Shown here: positions 7,900 through 12,499 of the stretch, one piece after another
Layout: every line of letters starts with the position of its first letter
How positions within the stretch are numbered: position 1 is the stretch's first letter
Source: a virus
Length of the DNA stretch: 24,407 bases
Direction: 5' to 3' (one strand)
Virus record (IMG/VR): IMGVR_UViG_3300031746_000166
Span: 1-24,407 of that record
Notes under the pieces: generated by a model
What the model saw: only the letters and a program-made list of their open reading frames with translations
Told to the model about the DNA's origin: nothing
The model's database searches: none
Made by a program: the position numbers and the translations under genes

Positions 7900-9678
7900 G
7901 TGCCAAAGCTACGAAACATGCAGAGTGAAACGCAAGGGGGCCTCGCACAGCTGTTGAGCCAGCAAGGGGGCAACCAAGAAGTTATCGACGCTGCGAAGCA
8001 GATCGAGTCGATGCCTGGCGGTCCTCAACTGCTCTACACCCAAGCAGCACAAAAAATGCTGACCCGACAGGGCGTGCCAAAGGCTAAAGCTAAACAGCTG
8101 CGTTTGTACTCGGCTCCTGATACGGGAATCACCCCTGCAATGGCTCATGGGGGGTCAACTCGACGCGCAGCTGAGACGGCTCGACGCGCGGGTCGTGGTG
8201 ACGATTCGATGATGTTGCATCTCGCACCCGATGAGTACGACGCGATCACTGCCATGTGGGGCAAGCCGACGATCAACCCCAAGACCGGCATTGGTGAGTA
8301 CGGCTTCTTGAGCAGTGCGTGGAAGAAGATCAAACACGCCGTGAAAAAGGTGGTGGGTTCTCCTATCTTTCAGACCGTGGCACCGATCGCGCTGGCTGTT
8401 TTTGCTCCTTGGGCAGCACCTGCCATTGGGGCGTTCATGGGTGCATCGGGCACTGCAGCTACGATCGCTGGCAATGCAGTCATTCAGGGAGGCCTCGGTG
8501 CTGTTGCCGGTGGCAAAGAAGGGGCCATACGGGGGGCAGTCAGCGGTGCCATTTCTGGGGGCTTGGGTGAAGCTGCAGGTAAAGCGGTAGGGCTGTCGGG
8601 AAAGACTGCTGACATCGCAGGTAGCGCGACGCTTCAAGGCCTTGGGTCAAAAGCGAGCGGAGGAGATTTTGGGGAGGGCGCAGTGCAGGGGGGGCTGAAT
8701 GCGGCAGTAACACGCCCCATGGTGAACAAGTTTGTCGCGGGTGCTCAGGATTACTTCGGCACCACGCCGACGACTCCGGAGATCAACATGGATCCCGGTT
8801 CTGCAGATCCCATGAATGACTCACCGGTAGTGAAGGATGGGGCCATCTCTGGAGGCATCTACGGTGACGCTACAGCGCCGGGTTCTGCGGTAGCCTCTGC
8901 TGGTACCCCTGGGGGCGCTGCGCAAGCCGCAGGCGCAGCCCAAATGGGCAAAGGAACCAGTATAGAAGACTACGCCCTGCCTGCGATTCTTGGGCTCGGT
9001 GCCTTGGGAGGTTCGTCGCAAGGGGGCTATGGCAACCCCAAACCGCCACTGTATCCGGAAGACTTCAATGAACCGTTACCGCAGTACTCACTGAAGCGCT
9101 CCATTCGGCCGATGGACCCCAACTCGTATTACACGTACGGACGCCCCGGCGCTCCTATGTCGGGGCAACACCTGTTCCTGGGGCCTGAGTCATACGAGAA
9201 GCAGGGGGGGCTTGCTGCTGCGTCAGCCCCATCGTTGGCGACCCCTCCAGGTCAGGGTTCGATCATACTGCCCCCAGGTAATGTCGGTGCGTCGCAACGG
9301 CAGGCTCTGGAGCAGCAGGGCTGGACCTTCAACGGGACCACGAATGAGATGATTCCCCCGCAAGCACAGCCTCAGACAGCGGCGCAGGGTCGTTACGTGC
9401 GGGGACCCGGTACCGGACGCTCCGATGACATTGAGGCGAGGCTCAGTGACGGTGAATACGTCGTCGATGCTGAGACCGTGTCATTGCTGGGGGATGGTTC
9501 GGGTGATGCTGGTGCGCGGCGTCTTGATGAAATGCGACGTAATTTACGCCAGCACAAGGCGACGAATCTGAAGAAGGGGGAGTTCACGCACAAGGCGAAG
9601 CCCCCTGCAAAATACATGTCGATGGGTGGCGGAATGAAGGCACTGCGACGGGCACAAATCGCTGCGGGGAGGAATTAG
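7900..9678 (+). CDS. Internal virion (ejection) protein candidate with GG motifs
   Basis: This 592-residue protein starts at GTG with a strong upstream site. Residues 1-100 are Gln-rich helices with QGGL and HGGS motifs. Residues about 138-215 carry a basic patch (SAWKKIKHAVKKVV), then a long Gly/Ala hydrophobic stretch (PIALAVFAPWAAPAIGAF...), typical of phage proteins that enter or line a membrane during DNA ejection. The middle is Pro/Gly-rich and probably disordered. Residues about 500-560 contain a block seen in many phage structural proteins: GPGTGRSDDIEARLSDGEYV, then LLGDGS..AGARRLDEMR. The C-terminus is basic. It stops immediately before the ATG of the next gene. Ejection role is inferred from the hydrophobic region and from the operon position. 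Confidence 0.65.
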   Translation: MPKLRNMQSETQGGLAQLLSQQGGNQEVIDAAKQIESMPGGPQLLYTQAAQKMLTRQGVPKAKAKQLRLYSAPDTGITPAMAHGGSTRRAAETARRAGRGDDSMMLHLAPDEYDAITAMWGKPTINPKTGIGEYGFLSSAWKKIKHAVKKVVGSPIFQTVAPIALAVFAPWAAPAIGAFMGASGTAATIAGNAVIQGGLGAVAGGKEGAIRGAVSGAISGGLGEAAGKAVGLSGKTADIAGSATLQGLGSKASGGDFGEGAVQGGLNAAVTRPMVNKFVAGAQDYFGTTPTTPEINMDPGSADPMNDSPVVKDGAISGGIYGDATAPGSAVASAGTPGGAAQAAGAAQMGKGTSIEDYALPAILGLGALGGSSQGGYGNPKPPLYPEDFNEPLPQYSLKRSIRPMDPNSYYTYGRPGAPMSGQHLFLGPESYEKQGGLAAASAPSLATPPGQGSIILPPGNVGASQRQALEQQGWTFNGTTNEMIPPQAQPQTAAQGRYVRGPGTGRSDDIEARLSDGEYVVDAETVSLLGDGSGDAGARRLDEMRRNLRQHKATNLKKGEFTHKAKPPAKYMSMGGGMKALRRAQIAAGRN

Positions 9679-10926
9679 ATGTCAAGCATTACTGACTTTT
9701 TATTCGAGGGGAAACCTCCGAAGTCAGTCACTACTTACGGACAGACTGTTGAGAATGTCCCGAAGTGGATGTCGGACTACACGCAGGGCTTGATCGCTCG
9801 TGCGAACGCTGCCGCAGCTGAACCGTACATTCCGTACGAAGGTCCCCGCATCGCAGGCTTTACCCCTGAGCAGGAGGGGGCTTTTGGGCTTGCGCAAGAG
9901 AACATCGGCGCGTATCAGCCGTACCTCGAATCAGGTGCAGAGGCAACGCAGGGGGGGCTTCAGCAAGCTTCACGCGCAGGGAACACTGATGTGCGCGGAG
10001 CGGCACAACCTTACATAGATCAGGCTGGGGGTAACTTCAACGATCCGGGCAATGTTGAAGCGTACATGAACCCCTATGTACAGAATGTGCTAAATCGACA
10101 GGAAGGCCTTGCCACGCGCACGCTGGAGGAGAACTTCTTGCCGAAGCTCCAACGGACTTTCGCAGGGGCGGGTCAGTACGGATCACGTGGTGGCTTCGGC
10201 TCCATGGAAGATATCGGTGTCAAAGGGGTTCGGGACATCCAAGAGAACCTGGAGCAGCAACGTCTGAGTACGTTGGGTACTGCGTACGGACAGGCGGCTG
10301 ATATCTATGGATCTGATCGAAGTCGTGCGGGTGAGCTTGCTAAGACCGCAGGTGGTCTCGAAGAAGCCACGGGACGACTTGGGGTGCAGGGTGCATTGGC
10401 TCAGTTCCAGGGCGCAAATCAGCTGGGACAGATGGGCGAGGCATCTTCCAAGCTGGGTTCGTTGGATTCGGCAGCACTTGAAAATATTGGCAAGACTCGG
10501 CAAGGGCAAACGCAGGCGGGGTTGGATCTTGCGTACAAAGATTTCCTGGAACAACGCGATCTGCCGATGCAGCGTGCAGCGTATATGTCGGACATCATTC
10601 GAGGGATTCCCGCATCAGCTGTCGGTCGCACCGTCAACAGGCAAGAGACTGGCCCCGCAGATATTTACCAACCGTCCGGTCTTGCACAGATTGCAGGTGC
10701 GTACGGCACGTACAAGGGATTGACCTCTGCACGTGGTGGCCCAGTTCACGCAGCTGAAGGCGGATACATCGACAATCTGACCGGAGAGTACATCGAAGAT
10801 CACACAGCACCTCGTGTGGATTATAGCGGGCATTTTGCAGGTCCCAATGACTATCGTCACGGAGGGTTGGCGCACTATGCCACCGGGGGAAAGTTGGTGC
10901 GTATGAAGCGCAGGGCTATGGGCTAG
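9679..10926 (+). CDS. Virion-associated protein, zero-frame product
   Basis: This 415-residue protein starts at ATG directly after the previous stop, with GGGGAGGA at 9666-9673. Residues 45-70 contain PYIPYEGPRIAGFTPEQE, a word seen in many phage structural proteins; residues 85-325 are Gln/Ala/Gly-rich helices with likely coiled-coil character (QENLEQQRLSTLGTAYGQAADIYG). The C-terminal 65 residues hold Gly-Gly words: ARGGPVHAAEGGYI, HGGLAHYATGGKLV. The zero frame stops at TAG 10924-10926. A GGGAAAG heptamer sits in the correct phase at 10887-10893, and the -1 frame is open to 11099, so part of the product is probably a 474-residue form. Likely an internal virion or tail component; the exact role is not recognised. 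Confidence 0.7.
   Translation: MSSITDFLFEGKPPKSVTTYGQTVENVPKWMSDYTQGLIARANAAAAEPYIPYEGPRIAGFTPEQEGAFGLAQENIGAYQPYLESGAEATQGGLQQASRAGNTDVRGAAQPYIDQAGGNFNDPGNVEAYMNPYVQNVLNRQEGLATRTLEENFLPKLQRTFAGAGQYGSRGGFGSMEDIGVKGVRDIQENLEQQRLSTLGTAYGQAADIYGSDRSRAGELAKTAGGLEEATGRLGVQGALAQFQGANQLGQMGEASSKLGSLDSAALENIGKTRQGQTQAGLDLAYKDFLEQRDLPMQRAAYMSDIIRGIPASAVGRTVNRQETGPADIYQPSGLAQIAGAYGTYKGLTSARGGPVHAAEGGYIDNLTGEYIEDHTAPRVDYSGHFAGPNDYRHGGLAHYATGGKLVRMKRRAMG
10887..10893 (+). promoter_or_regulatory. Candidate -1 frameshift slippery site GGGAAAG
   Basis: The heptamer reads G-GGA-AAG in the phase of the zero-frame gene (codons GGA at 10888 and AAG at 10891), so it fits X-XXY-YYZ exactly. The same heptamer is used for the G/GT frameshift of phage lambda (established knowledge). 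A -1 slip would let both tRNAs re-pair with GGG and AAA. No function has been demonstrated here. Confidence 0.6.
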
Positions 10927-11102
10927 GGGGCCTTGCGCAAGCTGTTCGTGGTTTCTTCAGTCGAGGCGCAAACTGGGTGCGGTCTTTGACTGGTCGTTCA
11001 CGACAGCAGCCAGAACTGCAAGCGGTGGCAGGTAAGATTTACCCCCACTGTGACTTGACGACACGTTCGCAAGGTGCGGTGAAAATAGAGGATCAAGACT
11101 GA
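10893..11102 (+). CDS. -1 frame C-terminal extension of the 9679 gene
   Basis: After a -1 slip at 10893 the frame is open for 69 codons and ends at TGA 11100-11102. That stop overlaps the ATG of the next gene as TGATG, the same junction used at 4251-4255 and 12497-12501. The product starts VGAYEAQGYGLGGLAQAVRG, which carries the GGLA-AV word of neighbouring proteins, then a basic section (FFSRGANWVRSLTGRSRQ) and an acidic end (KIEDQD). The frame is open back to 10851 but has no ATG. A separate short gene from GTG 10977 (41 residues, GAGG at 10963-10966) is the alternative; a fusion made by a sequencing or natural indel is a third. Confidence 0.6.
   Translation, partial: VGAYEAQGYGLGGLAQAVRGFFSRGANWVRSLTGRSRQQPELQAVAGKIYPHCDLTTRSQGAVKIEDQD
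10908..10938 (+). other. Stem-loop downstream of slippery site
   Basis: Bases 10908-10917 can pair with 10929-10938 in ten contiguous base pairs, two of them G-U, leaving an 11-base loop that contains the zero-frame TAG. It begins 14 bases after the slippery heptamer, somewhat more than the usual 5-9 bases. It could stimulate frameshifting; pairing was worked out by hand, with no energy calculation. Confidence 0.45.
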
Positions 11103-12499
11103 TGAAAAAGCGTTACCAAAGTGGTGGCCTTGCCGAAGCAGTTGGTGTTGACGACGAAGATTCCTATGGAGATGCAAACTCTGACGGCACTGTGGGGGGG
11201 TCAGGCGCGCTAGATGCTGCTGCATCACAGAGGACCGTTGGCGATGCACTGCCTGACTCGTTGCAAGCTTCCGTCCAGGCAGCACGCAAGGTCAACCAGT
11301 CAGCGTACGAGAGAGCCATCGCACGATTGAGATCCGGACAGGAAGCGTTGCTGGCAATGAAGCCTGAAGACAAGTCCACGCGATGGCTAGCCCTGGCCCA
11401 GGGCATGTTGGCACCGACGAAGACTGGTGGCTTCGGTGAATCCGTAAGTAACTCGGCGGGGTTGGTCCGTCAGCAACAAGAGCTGACTAACAAAGAAGCG
11501 TTAGAGCGTCAGCTTGCGCTGCAGAGAATTAACGAACAAGAGGCTGGTGCTGAGAACGAGTACGCGAAGAACGAGATCGACATTCTCGGAAAAGAAGCGG
11601 GGTACCAAGTTGGGCAGGCCCGCGCACGTGTCCTTGGCTCGTATAACGCGATCGTTAAGGCGGGCATAGAAGCAGCGAATCTGGGGTTGGATCCCAGTAC
11701 GGATCATGTTGTGCGATACAGTGAAGTATTGATGCCGGGTGGTGAAACCGTTCGGCACCTCAGCGAGGCTGACGGTAAACCGATTGAGGTTGCTGCAACA
11801 GTGAACCCGCTGACTGTTACTTCGACAACAACGGCACGAGAGGAAGCTGAAGGAGCTTCCACTGATTACACGAAGCACATCAATGCAGCGACGGGTGCGA
11901 TGGTGGTACAGCCGAAAATCAAAGAGGCGTATCGCATCCTCGCGAAGGTCAAAGCAGGTGGCGGTACAACGAGTGGCTTGAAGGCCGATATGCTCAGGCT
12001 GACGGAGTACCTCGGTATCACGGAAGCGATCCCGGAAGGAACTCAACTGCTGGCTCTACAAAGCAAGGTGGGAGGCGCATTGATGGACCAGCTGTTGCAA
12101 CTCACGGGTAGCAAAACTGATTTCGAATACCGGAAGATCGAACAGCAACACGCTCGTCTGACGCAGAACGTCGATACGAACATGAGGGTCCTCGACGACA
12201 TGCTGCAGACCTATGACGATACGATCGATCGTGGCTATACCGCAGCAGGGCAGATCAAGAACAAAGGTTACCGTGAGTATATACGCGGCCAGATTGATGC
12301 GTACCGGAAGAAGCAGGGAGATACACCTGCTGAAGTGAATCGTAAGCCTTCCACGGCATCTCTTGAAAGATTCCTGCAGCGGATGCGCGATGCAAAGGCA
12401 CCTGACCAGCAGAAGAAAGAGATCGAGATGTTCCAAAAACGCTTCGACATGAGCGATGACATCGTAGTCGAGTTGCGTAAATTGGGAGTTGCAATCTGA
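11102..12499 (+). CDS. Helical internal virion protein candidate
   Basis: This 465-residue protein starts at ATG in a TGATG overlap with the -1 frame extension above; GAGG at 11088-11091 is a possible binding site. The N-terminus carries YQSGGLAEAVG, the Gly-Gly word shared with neighbours, then an acidic linker. Residues about 60-210 are Gln/Ala/Glu-rich and look like long helices (ERAIARLRSGQEALLAMKPE, RQQQELTNKEALERQLALQ). The C-terminal third is charged and helical. There is no signal peptide and no membrane segment. It is followed by a TGATG overlap with the next gene. Position and composition fit an ejected internal protein, comparable in role, not in sequence, to T7 gp15. No catalytic motif is visible. 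Confidence 0.6.
   Translation: MKKRYQSGGLAEAVGVDDEDSYGDANSDGTVGGSGALDAAASQRTVGDALPDSLQASVQAARKVNQSAYERAIARLRSGQEALLAMKPEDKSTRWLALAQGMLAPTKTGGFGESVSNSAGLVRQQQELTNKEALERQLALQRINEQEAGAENEYAKNEIDILGKEAGYQVGQARARVLGSYNAIVKAGIEAANLGLDPSTDHVVRYSEVLMPGGETVRHLSEADGKPIEVAATVNPLTVTSTTTAREEAEGASTDYTKHINAATGAMVVQPKIKEAYRILAKVKAGGGTTSGLKADMLRLTEYLGITEAIPEGTQLLALQSKVGGALMDQLLQLTGSKTDFEYRKIEQQHARLTQNVDTNMRVLDDMLQTYDDTIDRGYTAAGQIKNKGYREYIRGQIDAYRKKQGDTPAEVNRKPSTASLERFLQRMRDAKAPDQQKKEIEMFQKRFDMSDDIVVELRKLGVAI

Follow-up and report, generated by a model that had tools for sequence, protein, structure and literature searches.

The locus analysed here raises the question of why a gene starting at position 9679 of the window (the whole stretch of viral DNA under analysis, 24,407 nucleotides) should end at TAG 10924-10926 and leave 175 bases before the ATG at 11102 that opens the next gene (11102-12499). 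An earlier note on this DNA had proposed that the heptamer GGGAAAG near the end of the gene directs a -1 frameshift, giving a 474-residue protein beside the 415-residue product (predicted masses 50.3 kDa and 44.1 kDa, respectively). Its coordinates proved exact when rechecked in the sequence (gene 9679, TAG 10924, the 175-base gap, heptamer 10887-10893), the heptamer does read G GGA AAG in the zero frame, and the -1 frame from 10893 (VGAYEAQGYGLGGLAQAV...IEDQD) is indeed open for 69 codons and closed by TGA 11100-11102, in a TGATG that overlaps the next ATG (Table 1). The same TGATG junction is found in relatives L002-L005 and L024, and the same heptamer in the same phase in L002-L005, L024 and L056. 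The comparisons below lead us to regard this as very probably a programmed -1 ribosomal frameshift site in a podovirus-like phage gene for a DNA ejection protein. The majority of ribosomes would decode G GGA AAG in the zero frame and terminate at TAG 10924, producing the 415-residue form. In a fraction of ribosomes the tRNAs in the P and A sites would re-pair one base back, on GGG AAA, and these ribosomes would produce the 474-residue form, which carries a C-terminal appendage of roughly 60 residues. We infer the slippage itself, its efficiency and the entry of both forms into the virion.

Table 1. Positions in the window of the gene, its two reading frames and the candidate frameshift signals
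Feature	Position	Strand	Remark
Zero-frame gene, 415-residue short form	9679..10926	+	probable homologue of the podovirus DNA ejection protein family
GGAGGG, Shine-Dalgarno-like	10861..10866	+	20 nt upstream of heptamer
Putative slippery heptamer G GGA AAG	10887..10893	+	zero-frame phase
-1 frame extension, 69 codons and TGA	10893..11102	+	predicted long form of 474 residues
Ten-base-pair stem-loop	10908..10938	+	TAG in loop; candidate stimulator, weak
Zero-frame stop TAG	10924..10926	+	ends short form
TGATG	11100..11104	+	long-form stop overlapping next-gene start

Scanning viral contigs with the 415-residue protein identified 143 encoded relatives, of which the best 80 were kept; when a profile and individual family members served as queries, the close clade gained only two more. 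The close clade analysed here comprises 30 distinct members, duplicates left out, at roughly 51% identity to the window protein or more, and the genes up- and downstream are unchanged in nearly all of them. L001, the nearest contig, shares > 9 kb of identical sequence with the window and was therefore treated as the same virus, contributing no independent evidence. None of 50,697 phage records exceeded 35% identity, and bacterial genomes yielded one weak relative only. The distant homologues, about 70 in number, display neither a C-terminal appendage nor a conserved heptamer.

Fourteen distinct members of the close clade, window included, have a split layout in which a short zero-frame gene is followed by a conserved -1 extension (L001-L005, L010, L011, L013, L015, L018, L022, L024, L035 and L056). 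Exactly one in-phase X XXY YYZ heptamer lies in the overlap of the zero and -1 frames in all 14 genes, although these overlaps span just 9–119 codons (9–35 in 13 of the 14; 345 codons in total). The heptamers fall into three classes, namely class A with G GGA AAG (seven genes, including the window), class B with G GGA AAA (four) and class C with C CCA AAA (three), and, measured against the C-terminal domain, the slip site lies at a different point in each class. Elsewhere in these genes such sites are rare: the first 300 codons of 30 relatives contain 12 in-phase XXXAAA[AG] sites per 9,000 codons, nearly all within the conserved protein motifs EGKPP and IPKWM, so that about 0.46 heptamers would be expected in the 345 overlap codons compared to 14 observed. 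Counting one member for each of four groups (the window, the L003 group, class B and class C), the chance of finding a heptamer in all four is about 2e-7. Slippery codon pairs were used for 37 of 106 GK/PK pairs in the ejection gene compared to 4 of 135 in neighbouring genes. The + strand of the window holds two XXXAAA[AG] sites in all 24,407 bases. A second in-phase GGGAAAG lies at 8598-8604 in the gene at 7900-9678; its -1 frame closes after two codons and it was not seen in relatives, hence we rejected it as a functional slip site and consider it probably due to chance.

The extension is conserved at the amino acid level in these split homologues, and the heptamer is kept in 14 of 14, a clear answer to the comparison of homologous genes that the earlier note had proposed. 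Past the zero-frame stop, pairwise dN/dS is 0.10–0.46 and mostly 0.1–0.25, similar to the core; within class A it is 0.14–0.25 where synonymous sites are unsaturated, and substitutions pile up at sites that are third positions when the -1 frame is read. Purifying selection thus acts on the extension as a -1 frame product, and together with the heptamers this supports the earlier note's proposal of a frameshifted 474-residue form beside the 415-residue form. The class A extension has 16 invariant columns in 7 sequences. Its EDxD end (window 11085-11104) also encodes GAGGA, likely a ribosome-binding site of the next gene, and part of the conservation may therefore not concern the protein. The split tails of the GGGAAAA and CCCAAAA classes, read in the -1 frame, align with the tails of relatives in which the two parts are fused in a single frame; for class A there is no fused relative, and the likeness of its extension to the other tails is only moderate (hhalign probability 91%).

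A rival reading takes the -1 frame to be a separate small gene, starting at GTG 10977 or an upstream codon and translated by coupling to the stop of the short form. A weak GAGG precedes GTG 10977 by about 11 nt, L002 has an ATG at codon +34, and TGATG shows that coupling is used in the operon. However, the conserved Y.LGGLAQA lies upstream of GTG 10977, which speaks against the independent start there that the earlier note had named as a potential refutation. In five relatives (L010 and L013 in class B; L011, L018 and L022 in class C) the first ATG, GTG or TTG of the -1 frame comes no earlier than codon +25 to +46. That is past most of the conserved peptide, which therefore cannot arise by independent initiation in these genomes. 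The only early -1 frame start in L035 is a TTG at +7, and L015 has an ATG seven codons ahead of the slip. A separate gene would also leave unexplained both the heptamer in 14 of 14 split genes and the existence of fused relatives, and we consider it very improbable.

The fused layout, a single frame that includes the homologous C-terminal domain, is found in 14 other distinct members of the close clade. An in-phase heptamer is retained in 11 of these (C CCA AAA in seven, G GGA AAA in four), and in 11 of 11 a -1 slip at the heptamer would reach a stop after 3–8 codons, compared to 23% of random codons in these genes that have a -1 stop within 8 codons. The earlier note had stated that homologues with a clean single frame would count against frameshifting. 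Such homologues do occur, but 11 of the 14 keep the heptamer in phase with an immediate -1 stop, and rather than refuting frameshifting these 11 look like a version of the same device in which the polarity is inverted. When class B genes are aligned with their fused counterparts, the GGGAAAA is the same and there is one base fewer just 3' of it, and it is this one-base indel that inverts the default frame.

That same indel, and the existence of fused relatives, are what would be expected if an indel or sequencing error had broken a single gene and the heptamer were coincidental. We rejected a sequencing error or a pseudogene and give this explanation very little credence, since the same split is present in 14 distinct relatives with the heptamer every time, identical sequence is found in separate assemblies (L011/L012) and the downstream frame is under purifying selection.

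Three fused members have no heptamer (L023, L026 and L030) and two others encode the short form only, with no extension (L115 and L124); neither form is therefore indispensable in every lineage. These five appear to be lineages that have lost one isoform. On a tree of core columns there have been at least four changes of polarity and three changes of slip site. L035 (3001-4283) combines a core that falls among class C genes with a tail and slip site of the class B type, suggesting recombination where core and tail meet. As tails may recombine apart from cores, some of the changes on the tree may be exchanges rather than mutations. What is conserved is thus neither the site of slippage nor the default product, but the capacity to make both forms.

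Stimulation of -1 frameshifting usually comes from a structure 5–9 nt downstream of the slip site, or from a Shine-Dalgarno sequence about 10–14 nt upstream. The GGGAAAA and CCCAAAA classes, as well as L003-L005 and L024, have elements at such spacing. Stems that start 5 nt past the heptamer are present in class B (17 bp) and in its fused counterparts (14 bp), and their z-scores, calculated over a short stretch, are -2.4 to -4.2. In L003-L005 and L024 the stem is of 12 bp and the spacer of 6 nt. Each of these stems contains one or two pairs that are changed on both sides, which with four sequences is supportive but not proof. Both CCCAAAA classes have no consistently strong stem, and carry GGAGGG 12 nt upstream of the heptamer. 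The EGGY codons at this site are GAG GGT GGG TAY in 10 of 10 genomes, whereas none of the 12 EGGY copies elsewhere in these genes uses this set of codons (p 1.5e-6, although the sequences are not independent).

The subclass to which the window belongs (L001, L002 and L056) has no conserved stimulator, as neither a stem nor GGAGGG is well placed; in the window GGAGGG precedes the heptamer by 20 nt, farther than is usual for a stimulator. The stem-loop described in the earlier note does exist, with the TAG in its loop (10908-10917 pairing with 10929-10938, ten pairs, -18.3 kcal/mol), but its z-score of -0.2 to -1.0 is unexceptional, it begins 14 nt 3' of the heptamer and it is absent from L002 and L056. 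We rejected it as a conserved stimulator, given that it is no stronger than in shuffled sequence and is missing in the nearest members of the class, and it is the weakest part of the case for frameshifting. The idea that transcriptional slippage at the G/A run makes the second form draws on dnaX, where ribosomal and transcriptional slippage both occur (PMC3711429, PMC5009743), but it is most unlikely here, as the runs are short (G5A3 or C3-4A4) compared to the 9–10 A described for dnaX and the phase, type of heptamer and Shine-Dalgarno or stem stimulators fit ribosomal slippage.

Programmed ribosomal frameshifting thus remains our preferred reading, and the relatives offer a clue to what it may be for. 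The heptamer is kept whichever form is the default product, suggesting that it is the presence of both forms that counts. At the level of sequence comparison, this conservation, which extends to relatives of inverted polarity, indicates that a mixture of both C-terminal forms is maintained by selection. We further propose, as a reading that is about as likely as not, a polarity-indifferent isoform switch: the target of selection would be the proportion of short and long form and not the identity of the default product, and the site would for this reason have been kept at three positions and in either polarity.

A clade with both polarities and three slip sites provides a natural experiment on the purpose of frameshifting. 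The prediction is that ejection protein with and without the C-terminal appendage would both be needed in some proportion. If the ratio is conserved, the two polarity classes would need complementary efficiencies (e.g. near 50% as in dnaX), and the ejection complex would hold both types of subunit in fixed proportion. Gene callers are liable to misannotate these genes in two ways, as split members lose the extension while fused members hide the short form.

Known cases of frameshifting in tailed phages concern tail assembly chaperones and capsid or tail proteins. Our search of the literature found nothing on frameshifting in ejection proteins or in LUZ24-like phages; the mechanism has already been described and no case in an ejection protein was found, so that this would be a known mechanism in a new gene. 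One close likeness is phage lambda G/GT, which has the same GGGAAAG, a -1 shift, a short zero-frame and a long -1 product, and a polycistronic late operon in a tailed phage. In lambda the shift is low-level with a 30:1 ratio, and the products are not found in the mature virion (PMC5009743). The ejection gene differs in having no long-tail context, and no homology to tail assembly chaperones was found, the window gene having no match to that family.

The fused relatives share the layout of E. coli dnaX (tau/gamma), in that the long form is encoded in frame, a -1 stop follows within a few codons, and there is a Shine-Dalgarno-like element upstream or a stem downstream. This arrangement of a single-frame gene with a quick -1 stop is present in 11 fused relatives, whereas the window has the opposite polarity. 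Reversed polarity has been described for dnaX between distant bacteria, with many cases thought to involve transcriptional slippage (PMC3711429, PMC5009743). Here both polarities and three slip sites occur inside one phage clade of about 51–90% protein identity, and such mixing within one clade is unusual. Podovirus capsid genes also use frameshifts, including T7 10A/10B and the major capsid proteins of phiEco32, YF01 and Privateer, which use GGGAAAG, while in the SU10 capsid gene the -1 frame is cut short (PMC7881722, PMC9965538). These share with the present case a -1 shift near the end of a virion gene that would produce a C-terminally extended minor form; the differences are that the gene here encodes an ejection protein, and that its polarity is inverted in some relatives with the heptamer retained.

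The assignment to ejection proteins comes from PHROG 4287 (annotated as DNA ejection protein), which was matched by 51 of 77 homologues, including L017 with an E value of 4.2e-10. The window protein scanned alone had no profile match, but it is about 61% identical to L017, and the gene probably belongs to the DNA ejection protein family of podovirus-like phages. It sits downstream of an SU10-type adaptor gene, among ejection-type genes, in an operon that also includes tail fibre and virion structural genes and the terminase small subunit, and there is synteny with Caulobacter phage GB2A (homologue gp064). A distant homologue, gp27 of the podovirus Sinorhizobium phage phiM5, is annotated as detected in particles and adjoins internal virion proteins. 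The description of the locus as a virion gene in the earlier note thus holds at the level of homology (PHROG 4287 and the phiM5 particle annotation). PHROG 4287, phiM5 gp27 and GB2A gp064 share a homologous core and a syntenic module with the window gene, but the distant homologues (about 25–40% identity) end soon after the core and have no appendage or conserved heptamer.

An AlphaFold2 model built from 77 sequences (pLDDT 63; an earlier model from 24 sequences was poor) consists mainly of long helices, followed by a low-confidence linker at residues 302–360 and a small helical tail. Structure comparison matched no solved structure, and its hits among viruses were uncharacterised phage proteins. 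In the model the linker contains the CCCAAAA slip sites and the small tail the GGGAAAA sites, hence frameshifting would decide whether a complete tail domain is present. The most likely role of the appendage would be docking within the ejection complex via a small helical domain that follows a flexible linker, the partner being another component of that complex or of the portal ring. A GG[LYM][AI] word recurs in several predicted virion proteins between 7900 and 17505 in the window (e.g. KQGGLAAAS, RHGGLAHYATGGK, YQSGGLAEAV, AHGGLIKFARGGAVAMP and QQGGLARAM), and is perhaps a docking motif shared within the ejection module.
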